A stretch of DNA of 46,550 bases from Candidatus Kaiserbacteria bacterium CG10_big_fil_rev_8_21_14_0_10_49_17 (GTDB lineage Bacteria; Patescibacteriota; Minisyncoccia; Phycocordibacterales; JABMNX01). The notes below the pieces were generated by a model that saw only the letters and a program-made list of their open reading frames with translations, did no database searches and was not told where the DNA came from. Position 1 is the first letter of the stretch, and every line of letters begins with the position of its first letter. Below are positions 20,305 to 39,587 of the stretch, piece after piece. Position numbers and translations under genes: made by a program. The DNA is taken from contig PFBJ01000004.1 in assembly GCA_002778575.1 (NCBI GenBank), positions 1 to 46,550 on the forward strand, read 5' to 3'.

Positions 20305-21021
20305 ATGCCACAAAAAAGCAAGTACACACTACCCATTGCCATCGTTGTCGCAGGAGTGCTTATCGCAACTGCGCTTTACTTTACCAGCAACCGTACCGAC
20401 ACACCGACAACCACTACGGACGGTCAAACCGCACTGGTGCGGAGCGTGCAACCAGACGACCACATTCTTGGTAATCCGAATGCGCGCATTGTGATTGTTG
20501 AGTACTCAGATTTTGAATGCCCATTCTGTAAATCATTCCACGAAACCATGCATCAGGTTATTGACGTGTATGGACCGACAGGAGACGTCGCGTGGGTATT
20601 TCGCCAATTCCCTCTTGCGCAGCTTCACTCAAAAGCGCCTCGCGAGGCACAGGCTTCAGAGTGCGCGGCACAGCTTGGCGGGAATGAGGCGTTCTGGAAA
20701 TATGCAGATCGCATCTATGAAATAACGCCATCGAATAACGGACTCGACCTCTCAAAACTTCCGGAGATCGCTGCCCAAATCGGACTCTCGGTGGACGCAT
20801 TTAATGCCTGTATGGAAGGTAGTGACGCAAAAAATGCGGTTGATGAGGACGTGGCTGAGGCATTCTCTGCCGGTGGCCGCGGCACGCCGCATAATGTAAT
20901 TATTGTCGGTGACCAGCAAGTGGTGCTTGAAGGAGCCCAGCCATTTGCCGCAATGAAGAATGTTATCGACTCAATCCTTGCTCCAGACTCGGAAGTAGGA
21001 ATCCCAGCAGTGACGCAATAA
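20305..21021 (+). CDS. DsbA-family thiol oxidoreductase, membrane-anchored
   Basis: 238 aa. N-terminal anchor LPIAIVVAGVLIATALYF, linker, then a thioredoxin fold: VIVEYSDFECPFCKSF contains the CPFC active site, and GGRGTPHNVIIVG carries the cis-Pro loop. An inserted helical domain lies between. It resembles the DsbA-like/thioredoxin_4 group of secreted oxidoreductases. It is likely to form disulfides in exported proteins, and this window encodes several Cys-rich secreted proteins (14770, 11751). SD AGAGGAG. Confidence 0.92.
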   Translation: MPQKSKYTLPIAIVVAGVLIATALYFTSNRTDTPTTTTDGQTALVRSVQPDDHILGNPNARIVIVEYSDFECPFCKSFHETMHQVIDVYGPTGDVAWVFRQFPLAQLHSKAPREAQASECAAQLGGNEAFWKYADRIYEITPSNNGLDLSKLPEIAAQIGLSVDAFNACMEGSDAKNAVDEDVAEAFSAGGRGTPHNVIIVGDQQVVLEGAQPFAAMKNVIDSILAPDSEVGIPAVTQ

Positions 21022-22851: not shown

Positions 22852-24144
22852 TTAATAATTCTTCAATTGTTGGGAGCGTTCGTGCGTTCGGATTTTCTCA
22901 AGTGCTTTTGCTTCGATTTGCCGGATTCGTTCACGCGTAACGCCAAATTCCTTCCCCACTTCTTCAAGGGTATGGTAAATACCATCCTCAAGACCGTGGC
23001 GCATTTCAAGAATTTTTCGCTCCTTTGGCGAGAGTTCGTGAAGAATCTCTCCTATTTGATCTGCCAGAATACGCTGTGCTGACTCTTGGTCGGGAGAGAG
23101 TATGCGGTCATCAGCAATAAAGTCGCCGAGTGTTGATTGTCCGTCGTCACTGTCGCTTCCAACCGGACTTTCAAGCGAAACAGTATCCTGATTAATTTTT
23201 TTAATATTGTGGATCTTCTCGACATCAACTCCCATTTCCGTTGCAATTTCCTCCGGTAGTGGATCCCGTCCAAGGTCTTGGCTGAGGCGTCGTACTACCT
23301 GCTTGTACTTGGCAATCGTTTCAACCATGTGGACCGGAATACGAATGGTGCGACTCTGGTCGGCAAGCGCGCGGGTTATCGCCTGGCGAATCCACCACGT
23401 CGCATAAGTCGAGAATTTATACCCTTTTGTATAATCGAATTTATCAACCGCTTTAAAGAGTCCGAGGTTCCCTTCTTGGATAAGGTCAAGGAGAGTAAGG
23501 TCCGGAGAGCGCCCAACGTACTTCTTTGCAATTGAAACCACGAGACGCAGGTTTGCGCGCGCAAGGAGATTTCGCGCCTCGTCATCTCCTTCCGTAATCC
23601 GCTTTGCCAACTCACGCTCTTCAAGCGCGGTTAAGAGCGGGTACTGTCCAATTTCCCGCAAGTACATTTGAATCGAGTCGTAGGTTGAATCGCTTCCGCG
23701 CTTATAGAGATTGCGTTTATCGAGAAGCTCCTCAGAGGCCGCCTCCTCAAGAATACCGCCGCCTTCAAGCACATCGATATTTGCAGTGCTCATCTTGTCG
23801 TACATTTCCTCGAGAAACAGCACATCCTCTTCAATGGTTGGAAATTCGCGGAGAATTTCATCATACGTTACGTACCCCCTCTCACGTCCGCGCGCCAAGA
23901 GACGGCTCGCTTTTTCATTGCGCTCCTTTTCTTTTTTTGTTGCGGCTTTCTTCGGCGCTTTCTTTTTTAAGGCCTTCTTTGGCGTGCTCTTGCGGGTGCT
24001 CTTTTGTGGAGTCTTCTTTTTTGTAGATTTTTTTGCGCCTTTCCTCTTTGTGACATTCTTTCTTGCTGTTTTTTTTGGCGTCTTCTTCTTAATTGCGCGT
24101 TTTGTAACCTTTCTCTTTGTAGTGGTTTTTTTCTTTGGTGCCAT
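22852..24144 (-). CDS. rpoD: RNA polymerase primary sigma factor (RpoD, sigma-70) with Lys-rich N-terminal tail
   Basis: 430 aa. Residues 1-75 are a Lys/Thr/Arg/Pro tail (e.g. [20 protein letters not shown]) resembling a histone H1 C-terminus. A region 1.1-like segment follows ([15 protein letters not shown]), then region 1.2 ([15 protein letters not shown]), region 2 ([15 protein letters not shown]...[38 protein letters not shown]), region 3 and region 4 ([21 protein letters not shown]). All core-binding and -10/-35 recognition parts are present. It begins 4 nt after the dnaG stop, with a TAAAAT 6 nt before its ATG, so it may also have its own leaderless transcript. The tail is Lys-rich, not a standard part of bacterial sigma factors. 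Confidence 0.96.
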
Positions 24145-24148
24145 ACTT

Positions 24149-25864
24149 TTATTTTACTTCACTTTCTTCTAATTGTTGAATTCGTTTAGACAATTCACTG
24201 CTTTCCTTTTGAAGCGCCTGCGCTCGCTTACTATCTCCGCTGCTCTCTGCTTTCCGATGCTCCTCATTTACCCACTGCCGGCGGGCTTTCATATATTCCT
24301 TTGCAAGCCCTCGCAGGAGCTCATCTACCTCACGCTCTATCTTCCCCTCGTCCTGAATATAGAGTTCCGCTCGAAATGACAGTTCTTGTGATTCCTCATT
24401 CGGTATATCTTTAAGCTTATTAAATCGCTCTTCCCCGGTAATACCCACGATTGATTTTGTGAGCTCTGCAATATTTATATGCGGGTCTTTGAGCGATTCC
24501 TGCCAAAACAGTATGCCCATTAACGCTTCCTCGAGACGTTTTCTGCGACTGACCGGCCTTGCATTTCTGTACTGGTCGTCTCTTGGCACTACGCCCCGCT
24601 CACCAAGAGCGGCAATGCGTGATACTTCAGTGCGCACCGACTCCTCTGGAACACCTATTCGCTTTGCCACCACGGTAATAAAGTGTTCCCGATCTATCAT
24701 ACTCGTGATGCGCGCAAGGAATGGCAGCACATACTCTTCGACTCGCCGCTTGTATGTCCGGTCATCAAGGTTAAGTTCCGCAAGGTATGCAAGATAAAAG
24801 TCGACAATGTGCACACTTTCGCGGAGTGCCGCCCGCCACGCTTCTTTATCCGTAAGAATGAGGTCGGCCGGATCAACCCCAAGAGGCAGCCGTGCTACTT
24901 TTACATCCATGCCAAGTGAGAGCGCAAGTGCGGCACTTTTGCCAGCCGAGGCAACCCCAGCCCGATCAGCATCAAGCGCAAGGACAACATTGTTTGAGAG
25001 GCGCTTGAGCAGTGTCAGCTGTTCCTCTGTAAGGGCCGTCCCAGATATGGCAACAGTGTTAAGAAATCCCGCCTGCTGGCTAAGCAGTACATCCATTTGC
25101 CCTTCAACGACAATCGAAAAATCGTATTTCCCAATAGCTGATTTTGCGCTGTCATACCCGAAAAGTATGCGGGATTTGTGGTAGAGCGGTGTTTCTGGTG
25201 AATTAATGTACTTGGCTGAATCCTCGGACCCTTCGAAATGCCGTGCTGAAAATGCGACAGTACGTCCCGCTGAATCACGGATCGGGAAGATTATACGCCC
25301 TCGGAAACGGTCATAGTAGCCCTTCTCAGTTTTCTTTATGAGTCCTGCTTTCTCAATCAACGCATCACTGTGCCCCGTAATTTTAAGGGCGTCATAGAGG
25401 TCGCGCCACTCATTTCTTGCGTATCCAATGCGAAAGAGTGTAATGCTCTTCTCTGTTAATCCTCTTTTTTTGAGGTATGCAAGCGCTTCTGCGTTCCCTT
25501 TCAGGTTACTCTCAAAGTGCTTTGTCGCGTCAGCAACAATCTGGTAGAGCTTTTCGTTTTCGTTCTTATTTCTCCCTGGTTCATGCGCAAGTACTACGCC
25601 TGCCCGGTCAGCGAGAATGCGCAGTGCCCCCTGAAAATCCACCCCCTCAAGTTTTTCAACAAAGGTGAACATGTCACCCCCTTGATTAGTGGAAAAACAG
25701 TAAAAGAGCCCCCTGTCCGGCGAGACATAAAATGAGGCAGTTTTCTCATTTGAAAAAGGTGATTTTGCCTTATGGTACTTGCCTGCCTTCTCAAGCTTTA
25801 TGTACGAAGAAACCACATCAATTATTGAGAGTTTCTCTTTAATTTGCTCGACGGCGCTGCGCAT
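24149..25864 (-). CDS. dnaG: DNA primase, zinc ligands lost
   Basis: 571 aa. The N-terminal CHC2-like domain is clear ([43 protein letters not shown]), but the zinc ligands CxxH...CxxC read S, S, C, T, so only one Cys remains. TOPRIM follows: [12 protein letters not shown] (Glu) and [11 protein letters not shown] (DxD). A C-terminal helical region probably contacts the DnaB helicase. It makes RNA primers at the fork. The gene starts 35 nt after rpoC and rpoD follows 4 nt after its end. TACAAT lies 6 nt before the ATG. Confidence 0.94.
24151..24156 (-). promoter_or_regulatory. Possible class A -10 (TAAAAT) of rpoD
   Basis: TAAAAT at the extreme 3' end of dnaG, overlapping its stop, 6 nt before ATG 24144. 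Confidence 0.3.
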
Positions 25865-25899: not shown

Positions 25900-28800
25900 C
25901 TACTCGCTTGCACGCTCGTCCTCCTCCTCGTGCGAGTTAAAGCTCTCCTGAAGTTCAGCAATACGAGTATACTTTGGACTATTTTCAAAGCCCGTTCCTG
26001 CAGGAATGAGTCGCCCGATAATAACATTCTCCTTAAGTCCTCGAAGGTTGTCTGCTCCGCCGCGTACAGCTGCATTAATGAGTACTCTGGTGGTGTTCTG
26101 GAATGACGCAGCAGAGAGGAAGCTCTTACGCGAAAGCGAGACTTCCATAATGCCGAGAATGAGCGGTTCGACAACTGCTGGAGTCCCGCCACTTTCTTTT
26201 ACGCGCGCATTTTCATCTGCAACATCTGCTTCACTCGCTGTCTCGCCGACGGTAAATTCAGTGTCGCCCGCCTGCTTAATGCGTCGACGTGAGAACATTT
26301 GCCGAATGATGACTTCGATGTGTTTCCGCGCGATGGTGACACCTTGCAACTCGTAGATGCGATTCACTTCATTGACGATGTACTCTTGTGTTGCTTCACG
26401 TCCTGCGTACTTAAAGAGCTCCTCTAGATTTGCCGATCCGTCAGTTAGGAACTGCCCCTTTACTACTTTCTCGCCCACCTTTACCAGCGGCATGCGTAGG
26501 AAGTGAACTGAATACTCGGTATCTTTTTTCTTTACCGTCTTACTTGCTTCATCTGGAGTAAGAATAATGATTTTCTCCTTCCCTTCATCGCGGATCTCCG
26601 ACACTTCACCGTCAACACGAGCAACGACAGCGGCATTTTTTGGAATTCGTCGCTCAAAGATTTCCTCAACGCGAGGAAGTCCTTGTGTAATATCACCGCC
26701 AACAGATGCGGTACCGCCGGTATGGAATGTACGCATTGTAAGCTGTGTTCCCGGCTCACCAATTGCCTGCGCCGCAACTGTGCCGATTGCCTCACCGAGG
26801 TCAATGAGTTCATTTGTCGCAATGTCAGCGCCATAGCACTGCTGGCAGATGCCGTAGTGCGTTTTGCAGGTAACTGGTGAGCGGACTATTACCTTCTCTA
26901 CGTCAGACTCTTCAACGACGCTCGCGTCTGCGCCTGAAAGCAAATGCCCCTTCTTAAAGAGTGTGTTGCCGTTACTGTCGACTATATCCTCTGCGACCAC
27001 GCGACCTTTAATGCTTCGGGCAAATGAGACCTCGATACCGGATGCGCTAAACCGAGTAATTTCAACACCCTCTTTTGTGCCGCAATTTGCCTCAGTAATA
27101 ATGACATCCTGCGCAACGTCAAAGAGCCGCCGGGTAAGGTACCCTGCTTTTGCGGTTTGAAGCGCAGTGTCAGTGAGACCTTTTCGAGCGCCGTGAGTCG
27201 ACGCAAAGTATTCAATGGGGGTTAGACCCTCCTTCATTGAAGCAATAATTGGGAATTCGATAGCCTCTCCCTTCGTATTCTGGACAAGTCCTTTCATGCC
27301 GGCCATTTGGTTGAGCTGCCGCACCGAGCCGCGCGCGCCGGAGAGAAGCATATCTGCAACCGGACCATTCGGGTCAAGCGCGCCCTTAAGGTACTTTTCA
27401 ATCTCGCCACTTGTCCCCTGCCACAACTCAATCAAAAGTCGTCGCTTTTCAGTCCGTGAAAGGAGCCCGTCGTTGAACTGCTTGTGAATTTCCTGTGCGC
27501 GCTTTTGTGCTTCCTCGATAATCTGTGCTTTTTCCTCAGGAATGCGGACATCTGAGAGACTCCAGGTAATACCTGCTCGCGTCGCGTACGTAAATCCAAA
27601 TTCTTTTATTCGATTGAGAATTCCGGGGAGTTCATCAAGGCCGTACGCAATAATGAGGTCATCGACGAGAGCGCTCATCTTCTTATTCGTCATTTCGTCG
27701 TTGATGTACGCGAAGTCACGCGGGAGTACCGAGTTAAAAAGGAGACGCCCAATCGAAGTCTCGAATGCTTCACCGTTAAATCCAGCGTATTTCGGAGAAT
27801 CTGTCGGAAGCACTTTGATTTTTGCTCGGAATCCGACCGCATCGAAGTCATACGCGGTGATCGCGTCATTCGGTGATGCGTAAAAATTCCCCTCTCCCTT
27901 TTCCCCTTCAACAATCTTTGTCATCCAGTAACAGCCGAGAATAATGTCTTGTCGCGCGCTCGTGACCACCTCGCCGCTTCCCGGCTTCAGCACATTCTTA
28001 TTTGCAGACATAATCGTGCGTGCCTCGTGCTGCGCTTCATCTGAAAGCGGTACGTGGACTGCCATTTGGTCACCATCGAAGTCAGCATTGAATGCCTGAC
28101 AGACAAGCGGGTGCAACTGGATAGCGTTTCCTTCAATGAGAATCGGTCGGAACGCTTGGATACCCTGACGGTGAAGCGTTGGAGCACGGTTTAGAAGCAC
28201 GTGCTTGTCCTTAATGACATCTTCAAGGATTGCCCACACTTCCGGAATTCCCTCTTCGATGAGGCGGCCGGCGCCGCGGATGTTATACGCGAGCTCTTTT
28301 TCAAGAAGTTGCGCGATCACAAACGGACGGAAAAGTTCGAGTGCCATGTGTTTTGGCAGACCGCACTGATCAAGCACAAGGTCCGGACCAACCACAATAA
28401 CTGATCGGCCGGAGTAATCGACTCGTTTACCGAGAAGATTTCCTCGGAAGTATCCCTGTTTTCCTTTGAGGTAGTCAGAGAGCGATTTAAGTGGTCGACG
28501 CTGGCTCTGGCTCATAGCCGAGAACATCGTATTGCCGTGGCGGATTGAATTGTCAAGGAGCGCGTCAACTGCTTCCTGGAGAATTCGTTTTTCGTTGCGC
28601 TGAATCACTTCAGGCGCGTTAATGTCTTTCAGTTTCTTCAGTCGGTTATTTCGGTTGATGACGCGGCGGTACAGGTCGTTTACATCAGATGATGCGTGAC
28701 GGCCTCCTTCAAGGGCAACCATAGGACGCAGCGCCGGCGGAATAACCGGAATGCGAACCATAAACATCCACTCGGGGCGAACCCCCGCCTTGCGCATTCC

Positions 28801-29580
28801 TTTTAAGAGCGAGAGACGTTTATTGAGCTTTGCCCGCTCAACAGCACCGGCGCTCTCGCGTGCCTCCTCGAGTTTTGAAATGAGCGTATCGAGGTTAATG
28901 TTTTTGAAAATATTGTATACAGCCTCAGCGCCAATTTCAGCTTCAAAGAGCCCTCCGTATTTGATTGAAAACTTGTGATAGGAAACCTCGTCAACAACGG
29001 CCATTTCCTGAATGCTCTGGATTTCCTGTTTCGTTGCCGTGAGCAGCTCTTTGAGTTTCGTTTTTGTCTTGGAGTCCTGCGCTGACGCAACCTTACTCTT
29101 GTATTCTTGGTCGAGCTCCTTAAGGAGCCGTGCGCGCTCATCCTCGTGCACTTTCGTAATAATGTAGCCCGCAAAGTAAATAACCTTCTCAACCTCACTT
29201 GCAGAAAGACCGAGAATAAGTGCGATACGAGACGGAATGCCGCGCAAGAACCAGATGTGCGAGACTGGCGTTGCAAGCTCAATGTGTCCCATCCGCTCGC
29301 GGCGTACAATTGAGCGCGTTACCTCGACACCGCACTTGTCGCACACTATCCCCTTAAAGCGGATACCGCGGTACTTACCGCAGTAGCACTCGTAGTCCTT
29401 CTCCGGACCGAAGATTTTTTCATCAAAGAGGCCGTTTTTCTCTGCACGTTGTGTTCGATAGTTGATGGTCTCAGGTTTTGTAACCTCTCCGTGTGACCAA
29501 TCAATAATACGCTCGGGAGAAGCGAGCTTTAGTGTTATCGCATCAAAGTCTTGGATAGTGTGATCGTCGTGTTTTTGCAT
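25900..29580 (-). CDS. rpoC: RNA polymerase beta' subunit
   Basis: 1226 aa from ATG 29580; the ORF track adds 16 codons overlapping rpoB. The N-terminal zinc ribbon is CYCGKYRGIRFKGIVCDKCGVEV. The active-site loop is NADFDGDQMAVH. The bridge helix/trigger loop region (MAGMKGLVQNTKGEAIEFPI ... MRTFHTGGTAS) is complete, and a C-terminal Cys motif CKTHYGICQQCYG is present. It ends in an acidic HEEEDERASE tail. Starts 4 nt after rpoB, so translationally linked. Confidence 0.98.
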   Translation of the reverse strand: MQKHDDHTIQDFDAITLKLASPERIIDWSHGEVTKPETINYRTQRAEKNGLFDEKIFGPEKDYECYCGKYRGIRFKGIVCDKCGVEVTRSIVRRERMGHIELATPVSHIWFLRGIPSRIALILGLSASEVEKVIYFAGYIITKVHEDERARLLKELDQEYKSKVASAQDSKTKTKLKELLTATKQEIQSIQEMAVVDEVSYHKFSIKYGGLFEAEIGAEAVYNIFKNINLDTLISKLEEARESAGAVERAKLNKRLSLLKGMRKAGVRPEWMFMVRIPVIPPALRPMVALEGGRHASSDVNDLYRRVINRNNRLKKLKDINAPEVIQRNEKRILQEAVDALLDNSIRHGNTMFSAMSQSQRRPLKSLSDYLKGKQGYFRGNLLGKRVDYSGRSVIVVGPDLVLDQCGLPKHMALELFRPFVIAQLLEKELAYNIRGAGRLIEEGIPEVWAILEDVIKDKHVLLNRAPTLHRQGIQAFRPILIEGNAIQLHPLVCQAFNADFDGDQMAVHVPLSDEAQHEARTIMSANKNVLKPGSGEVVTSARQDIILGCYWMTKIVEGEKGEGNFYASPNDAITAYDFDAVGFRAKIKVLPTDSPKYAGFNGEAFETSIGRLLFNSVLPRDFAYINDEMTNKKMSALVDDLIIAYGLDELPGILNRIKEFGFTYATRAGITWSLSDVRIPEEKAQIIEEAQKRAQEIHKQFNDGLLSRTEKRRLLIELWQGTSGEIEKYLKGALDPNGPVADMLLSGARGSVRQLNQMAGMKGLVQNTKGEAIEFPIIASMKEGLTPIEYFASTHGARKGLTDTALQTAKAGYLTRRLFDVAQDVIITEANCGTKEGVEITRFSASGIEVSFARSIKGRVVAEDIVDSNGNTLFKKGHLLSGADASVVEESDVEKVIVRSPVTCKTHYGICQQCYGADIATNELIDLGEAIGTVAAQAIGEPGTQLTMRTFHTGGTASVGGDITQGLPRVEEIFERRIPKNAAVVARVDGEVSEIRDEGKEKIIILTPDEASKTVKKKDTEYSVHFLRMPLVKVGEKVVKGQFLTDGSANLEELFKYAGREATQEYIVNEVNRIYELQGVTIARKHIEVIIRQMFSRRRIKQAGDTEFTVGETASEADVADENARVKESGGTPAVVEPLILGIMEVSLSRKSFLSAASFQNTTRVLINAAVRGGADNLRGLKENVIIGRLIPAGTGFENSPKYTRIAELQESFNSHEEEDERASE

Positions 29581-29584
29581 ACTA

Positions 29585-32500
29585 CTAGTGTTCAAGTTCG
29601 TCCTCAGCACGCTCCAGCCGCACATCAAGTGCGAGACCTCGGAGGTGTTTTAGAAGAACATTAAATGATGCCGGGGTGTGCGGGTGGCTTATGCGCTCGC
29701 CGCGAACAATTGAATCAAAGGCTGCGGAACGGCCGACGATATCATCTGATTTGATTGTGAGTACCTCTCGGAGGGTATACGCCACGCCATAGCCAAGGAG
29801 TCCCCAGACTTCCATTTCCCCGAATCGCTGGCCGCCATTTTGCGCCTTACCACCGAGCGGCTGTTGAGTAATAAGCGAGTACGGACCGATTGAGCGCATG
29901 TGGATCTTATCTTCAACCATGTGGTGAAGTTTAAGGATATACATATACCCGACAGCGACATCCTGATCGAACTTCTCGCCAGTTCGCCCGTCGTAGAGTT
30001 TAACTTTTCCGTTTCGTGGGAATCCTGCTTTCTCTAGCTCGTCCTCGATCTCTTTCTCTGACGCACCGGCAAATGGAGGAACAATAGCTTGGTAGCCAAG
30101 CGAATTAGCCGCAAGACCGAGGTGAAATTCAAGAATCTGTCCGAGGTTCATACGGCTCGGTACGCCAAGCGGAGTAAGGATAAGGTCGATTGGCTGTCCG
30201 TCTTCCGTATACGGCATGTCTTCCTCTGGGAGCACCTTTGAAATAACTCCTTTGTTTCCGTGGCGTCCCGCAAGCTTGTCCCCAACTGAGACATTTCGAA
30301 GCTGCGCAACTTCAATATGGATACGCTTAATAATGCCTGAGTCGAGCTGGTCGCCACTCTCACGAGAAAAGACCTTCACGCCAACGACGCGTCCGCGCTT
30401 TCCGCCTTCCATACGCAGGCTGGTATCTTTTACATCTTTTGCTTTCTCGCCAAAAATAGAACGGAGGAGTCGCTCTTCAGGAGTCAGTTGCGTCTCGCCT
30501 TTCGGCGTTACCTTTCCGACGAGAATGTCGCCGGAGCGCACTTCAGCACCAATGCGGACAATACCGTCTTCATCAAGATTGCGGAGCTTCATTTCTCCGA
30601 CATTTGGAATATCGTGCGTGGTTACCTCAGGGCCAAGTTTTGTGTCGCGAACAACGCACTCAAATTCTTCAATATGAATAGAAGTGAATTTACTGTCTTT
30701 CACAAGACGCTCAGATATAATGATGGCGTCTTCATAGTTTGCTCCTGACCACGACATAAATGCGACACGGACATTCTGCCCGAGCGCAACCTGACCGCGG
30801 TCACTTGATGAATTGTCAGCAAGGAGCTCCCCTCTCTTCACCTTTTGCCCCAGTGAGACGACTGGCCGGTGGTGAAATGCTGACATGTCATTCGTTCGCG
30901 AAAATGAGTGGAGTGTGTACGTCTGCTCGCCGGATGCGCCGGCTACTACCACTTTACGGGCATCAACATACGTAACCTCTCCCGCTTCTTTTGCGTACAC
31001 CAACCGCCCGGAGTCGCGCGCAACTGTCTCTTCAATGCCTGTTGCCACAAGCGGTGCTTCTGGCACGATACACGGCGTCGCTTGTTTCTGCATATTTGAT
31101 CCCATCAATGCGCGGCTGGCGTCATCGTGATCAAGGAACGGAATCATTGAGGTTGCAATAGAAAATGCCTGATTACTAGCAACATCGATATAGTTAATAT
31201 CGTTTTTATGCACCAGTCCTGGCTCTCCCTTTACGCGCGCTTCAACATACTCGTGTTCAATCACGCCACTCTCATCGCGCTTCACCAGTGCGTGCGCTAT
31301 TTTTACTCGCTCTTCTTCAAGTGCATTGAGATACTCAATCTCTCCTGTCATTTTTCCATCAACCACTTTTGCGTACGGCGTTTCTATGATGCCAAATTCA
31401 TTAATGCGCGCGTGGACTGCGAGGTTAAGGATAAGACCGATGTTCGGGCCTTCCGGCGTATGAATCGGACAGAGACGTCCGTAGTGGCTCGGGTGCACAT
31501 CGCGCACTTCAAACCCTGCACGTTCTCGCGTCAGTCCTCCCGGCCCGAGTGCCGAGAGTCGGCGGAGGTGCTCCACCTCAGCGAGAATATTCTGCTGGCT
31601 CATAAACTGCGAGAGCTGGTTGGTCGTGAAGAATTCTTTGATGGCGGCCTGGAACGGACGTGGATTAATAAATGAGATTGGCAGTGTCGTTTCGGCTTCA
31701 ACAGTCGACATTCGGTCTTGGATGTTTCGCTTCATACGGCTCATGCCGACACGAATCTTCTGCTGAAGCATCTCGCCGACGTAGCGAACGCGGCGAAAGC
31801 CGAGATGATCGATATCATCCGGCTGTGCATTCGGCGTCGCGTTAAGCGTCATAATATTTCCGACTATCTTCACGAGGTCATCGAGGGAAATCGTGCGTCG
31901 CTCCAACTCCTTCTCATCAGTCGACATATCGAAGCGCATATTGAAGTGGCGGCGACCAACTCGAGAGAGATCATAGCGCTCTGTTGAGAAAATAGAATCA
32001 ATGTACTCGCGCGCATTCTCAGCAGTCGCCAAGTCACCGTCGCGAAGTTTCTTGTGAATTTCTATATACGCTTCCTCGACGCTGGTTGCGGTATCCTTTT
32101 CAAGACACGTTTCAATTATTTCTTTCCCATTTGGAAAGCTCTTGAAAAGGTCAAACATGTCCTTATCAAACCGAGCTCCCAAAATGCGGAGCAGTGACGT
32201 GACAGGGAACTTCCGCTTGCGGTCAATTCGTACATAGATACACCCGTCTGCCTCAGACTCAAGCTCAACCCACGCTCCGCGCATCGGGATAATTTTGGCG
32301 CCAAAGTATGTCTTTCCTTTTTGCTCGTGTGTCGTAAAGAAAACGCCGAAAGAACGCGCGAGCTGCGGCACAATAACGCGCTCGACACCGTTAATGATGA
32401 ACGTGCCGTGCTCGGTCATTTGCGGAAAATCGGCAAGGAAAATCTCCTGCTCTTTTACATCACCTGTCGTTTTATTTTTAAGACGCGCCACAGTACGAAG

Positions 32501-37221: not shown

Positions 37222-37251
37222 TCAACTCACACGGGGTGTGAGTTGATTATT
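37217..37251. terminator. Bidirectional 16-bp stem carrying both stop codons
   Basis: AATAATCAACTCACAC / GTGTGAGTTGATTATT, loop GGG. The TAA of rnr lies in one arm and the TAA of smc in the other. Confidence 0.8.
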
Positions 37252-39460
37252 TGGCTACTTTCACGGCTTCCTCAAACTTAACTGACAGCAACTTGCTGAC
37301 CCCGTCAGCCCCCATCGTGACACCGTAGAGTACGCCTGCGGTGCTCATTGTTTCGCGGTTATGCGTAATGAGGATGAGCTGGGTTTTCTTTGCAAGTTCG
37401 CGAATCATCTGCCCGTATTTGCGGGAGTTCGCCTCATCGAGCGCCGCGTCAGTCTCATCGAGAATAAGAAACGGTGGCGGATTCACCTGACTCATTGCAA
37501 AGAGAAGCGCAATTGAAGTAAGTGCTCGCTCGCCTCCGGAGAGCATTTCAAGACCTTTCACTTTTTTTCGAGGAAGGGAAATAGAGATATCAATACCCGT
37601 CTCGCTTTCTTCTTCTGGCACTTCTTCTAAAATAGCTGCATCACTGCGTCGGCGCTTTGGGGTGGCGCGTACGACCGAAAGCGACGCCGTACCCCCGCCA
37701 AAGAGGATTTCAAAAAAATGCTGGAACTCTGAATTTATTTTTGCGATGCCGTCTTTAAACTGCGTCTCGAGTTCATCGGTGAGCGTCGTGATAAGTTCTT
37801 GCAGCGACTCAGCCGATTTCTCTAAATCTTCAATTTCCCGTACTAAAAACGCGTCGCGCTCTGTCGCCTCTTCATACTCCTTCATTACATCCTCCCCAGA
37901 ACCAGAGCAGTACTCCTCGAGGCGAATCTTTAGCCGCTCAATATCGCGCCGCCGCTCTTCCTGAATGTGCCGATCCTCTGCCTCGACGCTTTCATTTGAA
38001 ATATGTTCATCAGTATACGAGAGGATATCTCTGCCGACAAGCACGACTCCCTCTTCCCTGTCGCGCTTAAACTCATCTACGAGACGCGTAAGCTCTGATT
38101 CTTGCCGCTCGAGGTCACGCAGTACACTCTCTACCTCCTGTTTGCGGGTTGTGATACGAAACACTTCCCGCTCCGCCACTCGCTCTTCGTCTTTCCCTGC
38201 CTCAATTTCCTCTTTCAGTTCTGAATACGTCTTTGAAAGCTCGCCTTCTTTTTTTGAAAGACTCTCCAGTTTTTCTTCAATCGCGCTCTTTTCCTCTTGT
38301 AGCGCGGCGACTTCTGTGTCACCTTCAACACCTGCACCTCCACTTCGTCTCTCAGAGAGGAATGCCGCGACGCGCTCCTTAATACGGACAAGAAGCGAGC
38401 GGACAGTTGTAATCTCTGTCGCTGATTGCGCTTCAGAGAGTTCCGCTGAGACGCTTTCCATAAATGATTCGAGTTCTGAAAACGGAACAGCGGAGATTGC
38501 AACTTTCTCCGCATGCCGTTTCGCAAAAGAGAGCTGCCCTTCGATGCGTCCAAGCTCTCGCGATAACGCATCACGCGAATTGCGTACCTCGGAGAGGGCG
38601 CGCTCAATCGAAAGCACTTCTTTGCTCTTTTCGTCTTCACCGCTACTGCTCTCAAGCACACGTCGAGCAGTGCTAAGTTCCCGCGTGAGCGATGCCAATT
38701 CATTTACTGGCTCGTTCTTTTCGGTTTTAATACGCTTTTCAAAAAGTGTGAGAAATATTTCTTCTCGCTTTAAATATTCACGGAGTTTACCCTTTAGCTC
38801 TTCGCGCATTTCGCGAGCTTTCTCGAGCTTCTTTACCTGATTGCTTAAAAATTTAATATGCGGCGCTATCTCTCGACGCAGTGATTGCACCTGGGATATG
38901 TTTTCATTGGTCCGCTCGAGTTTCCGCTCGCTCTGTGCCAATTTGTAGTGGTACACCGTAAGTCCAAGAGCATCTTCAACGGCTTCACGCCGCTCTCGGA
39001 GGTTTGCGTTGAGAATCTTATCCGCCTCTCCTTGAGAGATGATGTGATGCCCTGAAGCGCCTATGTGTGCGCCGGCGAGGAGCTCGACCACATCCTTGAG
39101 GCGCACCGGCGAGCCATTGATGCGATACTCATTGCCGCCGTCACGGTGCACAATGCGCTCAATAGACACTTCGTCAAAATCGACATCAAGGAGTCGTTTA
39201 GTATTATCAAACACTACTTTCACCGAACCGCGATTCATTCGTGCGATTGAGTGCGACCCTCCCCATATCAAATCCTCGCCTCTTTTGCTTCGCATGCTCT
39301 TCATGCTCTGCTCGCCGAGCACAAAGCGAAACCCTTCCGCCACATTACTTTTGCCTGACCCGTTTGGTCCCACAACAGCTGTAATGGGCGCACTGAATTC
39401 CAATTCGCCTTTTTTTGCGAATGATTTAAAACCTGAAAGCTCGATACTCTTTAAATACAT
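37247..39460 (-). CDS. smc: Chromosome segregation protein SMC, shortened and without visible hinge
   Basis: 737 aa from ATG 39460; typical SMC has 1150-1200. N-terminal Walker A VVGPNGSGKSN in MYLKSIELSGFKSFAKKG. C-terminal ABC signature KGLEMLSGGERALTSIALLF, Walker B FLILDETDAALDEANS and D/H loops are complete. The coiled coil between is short, and in its middle I see only a Gly/Arg linker (LSERRSGGAGVEGDTEVAAL), not the SMC hinge fold with its conserved glycines. RecN or RecF-like alternatives are less likely, since the heads are SMC-type. Compacts and segregates the chromosome. TGGTACAAT is 7 nt before the ATG (class A). Confidence 0.9.
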   Translation of the reverse strand: MYLKSIELSGFKSFAKKGELEFSAPITAVVGPNGSGKSNVAEGFRFVLGEQSMKSMRSKRGEDLIWGGSHSIARMNRGSVKVVFDNTKRLLDVDFDEVSIERIVHRDGGNEYRINGSPVRLKDVVELLAGAHIGASGHHIISQGEADKILNANLRERREAVEDALGLTVYHYKLAQSERKLERTNENISQVQSLRREIAPHIKFLSNQVKKLEKAREMREELKGKLREYLKREEIFLTLFEKRIKTEKNEPVNELASLTRELSTARRVLESSSGEDEKSKEVLSIERALSEVRNSRDALSRELGRIEGQLSFAKRHAEKVAISAVPFSELESFMESVSAELSEAQSATEITTVRSLLVRIKERVAAFLSERRSGGAGVEGDTEVAALQEEKSAIEEKLESLSKKEGELSKTYSELKEEIEAGKDEERVAEREVFRITTRKQEVESVLRDLERQESELTRLVDEFKRDREEGVVLVGRDILSYTDEHISNESVEAEDRHIQEERRRDIERLKIRLEEYCSGSGEDVMKEYEEATERDAFLVREIEDLEKSAESLQELITTLTDELETQFKDGIAKINSEFQHFFEILFGGGTASLSVVRATPKRRRSDAAILEEVPEEESETGIDISISLPRKKVKGLEMLSGGERALTSIALLFAMSQVNPPPFLILDETDAALDEANSRKYGQMIRELAKKTQLILITHNRETMSTAGVLYGVTMGADGVSKLLSVKFEEAVKVAK

Positions 39461-39467
39461 TGTCCGT

Positions 39468-39473
39468 ATTGTA
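39468..39473 (-). promoter_or_regulatory. Class A -10 (TACAAT) of smc
   Basis: TGGTACAAT with 7 nt to ATG 39460. Confidence 0.55.
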
Positions 39474-39480
39474 CCAAAGA

Positions 39481-39507
39481 AAAAGACCCGCGCCGGAAGG
39501 CGCGGGC
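39481..39507 (-). terminator. Terminator between rnc and smc
   Basis: 8-bp stem CCCGCGCC / GGCGCGGG, loop of 4, then TCTTTTTCTTT on minus. smc thus depends on its own promoter just downstream. Confidence 0.8.
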
Positions 39508-39587
39508 AAGGAGCAGGGAGAGTCACTTACGGGAGGTTGCGGGCAATCGTCTGGGAAATCGCCTGCACATACAGCATACCACACACA

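Follow-up and report, generated by a model that had tools for sequence, protein, structure and literature searches.

The window, i.e. the whole 46,550-nucleotide stretch that was analysed, contains a complete DNA primase gene, dnaG, at positions 24149–25864 of the minus strand, encoding a protein of 571 amino acids in which CHC2-type, RNA polymerase (Toprim) and putative C-terminal helicase-binding regions follow one another in order. Its neighbours are transcribed from the same strand: rpoC lies upstream (25900–29628, minus strand; assigned from its translated sequence), its translation containing both cysteine zinc sites, and a gene for an rpoD-type sigma factor lies downstream (22852–24144, minus strand). 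The protein matches TIGR01391 with 381.9 bits (cut-off 283.6) and covers the whole domain; among profile matches to its separate domains are PF01807 (89 bits), DNAG_N (134 bits), Toprim and a weak DnaB_bind. The match to the helicase-binding profile PF10410 (residues 355–408) is barely above its cut-off (21.5 versus 20.6 bits), and is followed in the AlphaFold model by about 140 helical residues. The Toprim catalytic acids (motifs EGxxD and DxD) are E254, D258, D298, D300 and D331, and they are invariant in the 124 relatives, of both types, that are described below. A scan of the complete host genome (643 kb in 20 contigs, rated 100% complete) gives one CHC2 match, the window DnaG, and this is probably the working primase of the organism.

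We also note two other genes in the window. The first (37247–39526, minus strand) encodes a 759-residue protein of SMC-like sequence, with matches to the SMC profile over two stretches; it is far below the 1181 positions of the family model and may be a shortened SMC. The second (20305–21021, plus strand) encodes a thioredoxin-like lipoprotein similar to members of the Rcas_1661 (seleno)lipoprotein family, with a score (100.5 bits) below the cut-off of 190.

The ligand positions of the CHC2 domain

The N-terminal zinc-binding-type domain of DnaG (residues 1–95; 25580–25864, minus strand), of which residues 3–93 match PF01807, is without the four-ligand zinc site. When the protein is aligned to the solved primases 2AU3 and 1D0Q, the CHC2 ligand columns, C, H, C and C, read S35, S38, C56 and T59. 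Ser35 (TCA, 25760–25762) takes the place of the first ligand (Cys), Ser38 (TCA, 25751–25753) that of the second (His) and Thr59 (ACT, 25688–25690) that of the fourth (Cys), and the third is kept as Cys56 (TGT, 25697–25699); Ser58 (TCC, 25691–25693) stands where zinc-type relatives have Gly, and segregates with the ligand loss (all codons on the minus strand). A CHC2 zinc finger considered as a metal site has the four ligands C, H, C and C, and the window DnaG, with S, S, C and T, falls outside this definition. The statement of the earlier note that three of four zinc ligands have been lost is thus borne out, with its wording tightened slightly: Cys35, His38 and the last Cys (59) are gone, and the third ligand is retained.

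The same S, S, C, T set is present in six of six genomes of the family with varied codons, the five besides the window being separately assembled, and each replacement codon can be reached from a codon for the ancestral-type ligand only by two or more base substitutions (TGY to TCA or ACT, CAY to TCA). A sequencing or assembly error, entertained in the earlier note as something that resequencing might reveal, is rejected with a probability close to nil, because multi-base codon differences occur at three sites and five independent assemblies share the residues in different codons. The pattern of the zinc-free combination, S-x-[C/D]-[S/T] at the four positions and S-type hereafter, has a single match in the window and none in 100 shuffles, and the match is not due to chance. 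Gene decay and a second DnaG were also rejected, since the catalytic residues are intact, there is a single CHC2 DnaG, and conservation is undiminished.

Distribution and origins of the two forms

An alignment of CPR DnaGs at the ligand positions, as the earlier note had suggested, was made for the Patescibacteria (CPR) order to which the window belongs, and several patterns emerge. First, 83 of 124 DnaGs are CHCC (C-types), 41 are S-type, and none is intermediate; the set was picked for family coverage and includes most of the S-types found, so that the ratio of 41 to 83 is not a frequency. Secondly, position 58 is Gly in 83 of 83 C-types and Ser or Ala in 41 of 41 S-types, and there are strong but incomplete shifts between the types at positions 53 (S/T to M/L/V/F) and 72 (F/I to M). 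Thirdly, the remaining ligand positions of the S-types differ in their constraint: C56 is retained in 37 of 41, some have Asp there and hence no ligand of the classical set, and position 38 is free (T, S, N, K, Q or G). In a tree-corrected test of coupling there are two independent pairs on starred branches and 13 on the best tree; strongly supported switches are too few to establish that residues outside the ligand site are coupled.

The rarity implied by the earlier note proved to be wrong, as zinc-free DnaG is recurrent and widespread. With group counts made by matched letters and read by eye from the match tables, S-types are found in 40 of 294 genomes of the order, representing ten of about 90 families (the pattern used skips a few S-types, e.g. 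L286), and in 16 of 240 genomes of a sample of the phylum, where two further matches (in G322 and G490) have C, H, C and C kept together with Ser58. Beyond these, the sampled Alphaproteobacteria have the S-type at 13 of 98 sites (∼13%) and the sampled Bacteroidia at 12 of 62 (19%), with near-intermediates rare: one C,H,C,A in addition to the former and one S,H,D,T among the latter. In Corynebacterium the S-type occupies all of 81 sites, in 80 of 80 matching genomes, and it is also seen in Chlorobiaceae, Calditrichota and one Nevskia MAG. No CHC2 match other than the S-type DnaG is present in the S-type Asticcacaulis, Corynebacterium and Chlorobium genomes or in the Patescibacteria genome G533; an S-type Empedobacter genome has one additional CHC2 match, below the cut-off. 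Taken singly, the window gene is unremarkable; the variant to which it belongs is more widespread than expected, and the interest lies there.

A scan of genomes with the S-type pattern, restricted to TCN serines, gives at least 119 stretches, and there are matches in 95 viral contigs. The translated matches are mostly primases following the rule S-P-F-x-x-E-K-T-x-S-F ... [C/D]-F-[S/A]-[S/T], and the remainder are further proteins resembling primases, along with a small number of chance matches. Proteins of about 300 residues, both viral (e.g. L032, L068, L105) and in genomes (L159, L223, L243), also match; these have SPFR.EKTPSF ... DHG or DFG, lack the zinc site too, and are probably a separate mobile-element family.

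A tree built from the catalytic core alone (residues 100–420) has 14 changes of state, outgroup rows included, and constraining the S-types of the order to be monophyletic is rejected (lnL lower by 323, p-AU 3.9e-57), with strongly supported branches alone forcing only two changes. It is fair to put the number of switches at two or more, with roughly a dozen in the best tree. When the tree is built from the domain with the ligand and linked columns masked there are 7 changes instead of 14, in a tree of few columns, few supported branches and poor resolution, and this lower number is compatible with lineages having exchanged the domain. CHCC and zinc-free DnaGs occur together in the genus g107 (family f62), inside a group with 100% support (L277, L278, L279 and L282 versus the S-types L266, L267 and L370). 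The CHCC rows of this genus are nested within S-types in the masked-domain tree, and a return to zinc is possible there. One g107 genome, G176, has two different S-type DnaGs, L267/L383 and L370, on contigs C11 and C35, with 67% core identity; the second sits at a contig start and could be a contaminant.

That the S-type domain was gained by transfer or domain exchange, and not changed in place, we regard as possible but rather unlikely. The smaller number of changes in the masked-domain tree and the presence of both forms within g107 favour it; however, the few columns and few supported branches of that tree argue against exchange, and transfer is countered by the core tree, where complete S-type genes from Patescibacteria cluster with C-types of that phylum and not with Alphaproteobacteria or Bacteroidota. 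Transfer of the whole gene from Alphaproteobacteria is unsupported for the same reason. The codons of Ser35 are TCN in the S-types of the order and AGY in other Patescibacteria S-types; codon class was dropped as proof of independent origins because Corynebacterium mixes TCN and AGY within one genus. Transfer or exchange concerns the origin of the domain and is compatible with the explanation of its function given below. We put forward, tentatively and in the knowledge that it may well prove otherwise, that the template-reading domain of DnaG has two interchangeable states, switched repeatedly as a unit of about five coupled positions and nearly always without intermediates, and that the switch may run both ways or involve domain exchange.

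Function of the domain in S-type primases

In the S-types no other part of the protein is conserved as well as the N-terminal domain: the mean pairwise identity of the zinc-domain region is 0.63 within the S-types and 0.64 within the C-types, compared to 0.41 and 0.45 for the core. Because of these values we consider from the alignments that the S-type domain is not decaying. AlphaFold (58-row alignment, mean pLDDT 92.5, with blocks of 81–96 in the N-terminal domain) predicts a zinc-ribbon fold 1.1 Å from the solved zinc domain 1D0Q over 89 columns, which indicates compatibility with the fold and is weak evidence, since this fold is what AlphaFold is apt to predict with or without metal. No solved structure of an S-type domain was found, the clear structure matches being only 1D0Q and 2AU3.

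The best explanation, to which we give a probability of about 75%, is a zinc-free but working DNA-recognition domain. The domain would keep the zinc-ribbon fold and its role in reading the template, with zinc no longer bound. The metal site (C35, H38, C56 and C59, with G58) would have been replaced as a unit by the small polar set S-x-[C/D]-S-[S/T], which probably joins the two loops through hydrogen bonds and packing, and at the replication fork the domain would go on handing single-stranded DNA over to the RNA polymerase domain, which is intact. The absence of metal, its substitution by hydrogen bonds and the normal recognition of template are what we infer for S-type DnaG. The proposal in the earlier note that template recognition may work without zinc gains indirect support from the single copy, the conserved domain, the invariant acids and the persistence of the form across Corynebacterium; the help of another protein, which it offered as an alternative, is so far unsupported, with no clear co-varying site found in the order alignment of DnaG outside the N-terminal domain.

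An improbable alternative is that the domain is degenerating, with specific template recognition lost and primers either started with low specificity or placed by DnaB, SSB or a helper yet to be named. Three ligands are gone, template recognition by phage T7 primase reportedly depends on its zinc motif (as cited in the review PMC6163395), and the helicase of Clostridium difficile broadens the specificity of its primase (PMC5204125). However, a degenerating domain would not be expected to stay better conserved than the rest of the protein, and the replacements obey a strict rule without scatter. A further point against degeneration comes from position 55: in the C. difficile primase a lysine before the third ligand affects trinucleotide preference (PMC5204125), and this specificity-affecting position is Y or H in 41 of 41 S-types.

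Two further alternatives concern zinc itself, and both are very unlikely. A metal could still be bound, through C56 and non-classical ligands, by a second chain, or as a different ion, and the Cys at position 56 of most S-types of the order, which speaks for this, may reflect a metal that is shared between chains or bound weakly. However, the Asp56 S-types have zero classical ligands, position 38 varies freely, and Ser and Thr, the residues at 35 and 59, coordinate zinc poorly. Alternatively, the organism could avoid zinc generally, DnaG being one of many proteins changed for zinc economy, for which zinc-free forms of ribosomal proteins are a known parallel (PMC3087516) and the S4 of the host genome, which is without the N-terminal cysteines, would be an example. 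General avoidance is unsupported for the host and is not the explanation, because L36 keeps C, C, C and H in the host genome and its family, the RpoC encoded in the window retains both zinc sites, and the state of S4 is uncoupled from that of DnaG within genus g107. We note that in a genome of another family with a zinc-free DnaG (G256, family f42) L36 (L414) is apparently of the cysteine-free form, with C, C, C and H kept in the window's family.

Relation to known systems

No published description of a zinc-free DnaG was found in the open-access literature that was searched. A review of DnaG describes three cysteines and one histidine as highly conserved, the exact role of the zinc motif as unresolved, and primase as a drug target (PMC6163395). 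Bacteria with zinc-free DnaG would presumably escape compounds directed at the zinc site of primase. A recurrent natural zinc-free DnaG, present in a genus as tractable as Corynebacterium, offers a direct test of whether zinc serves template reading or folding only; if there are indeed two interchangeable states, zinc is not mechanistically needed in template recognition by DnaG.

The window protein is the same as DnaG in general (TIGR01391; PF01807, PF08275 and Toprim) in its apparent domain order, catalytic acids, predicted domain folds and rpoD neighbour, and differs in that three of the four CHC2 zinc ligands are replaced. Ribosomal protein S4 is a close evolutionary parallel, being an essential protein that also either has its zinc site or lacks it in an all-or-none manner, with both forms occurring here and there across the bacterial tree (PMC3087516). 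In contrast to S4, the metal site of DnaG is in a domain thought to read the DNA template, and the genomes checked generally have one DnaG and not a pair of zinc and zinc-free paralogues. The mitochondrial helicase TWINKLE also has a primase-derived zinc domain that has lost three of four conserved cysteines, and has lost priming too (PMC7231222); by analogy, TWINKLE and the T7 primase would count against a zinc-free DnaG still reading its template. However, unlike TWINKLE, whose priming has been taken over by POLRMT, the window DnaG has intact catalytic residues and no other CHC2 DnaG beside it.
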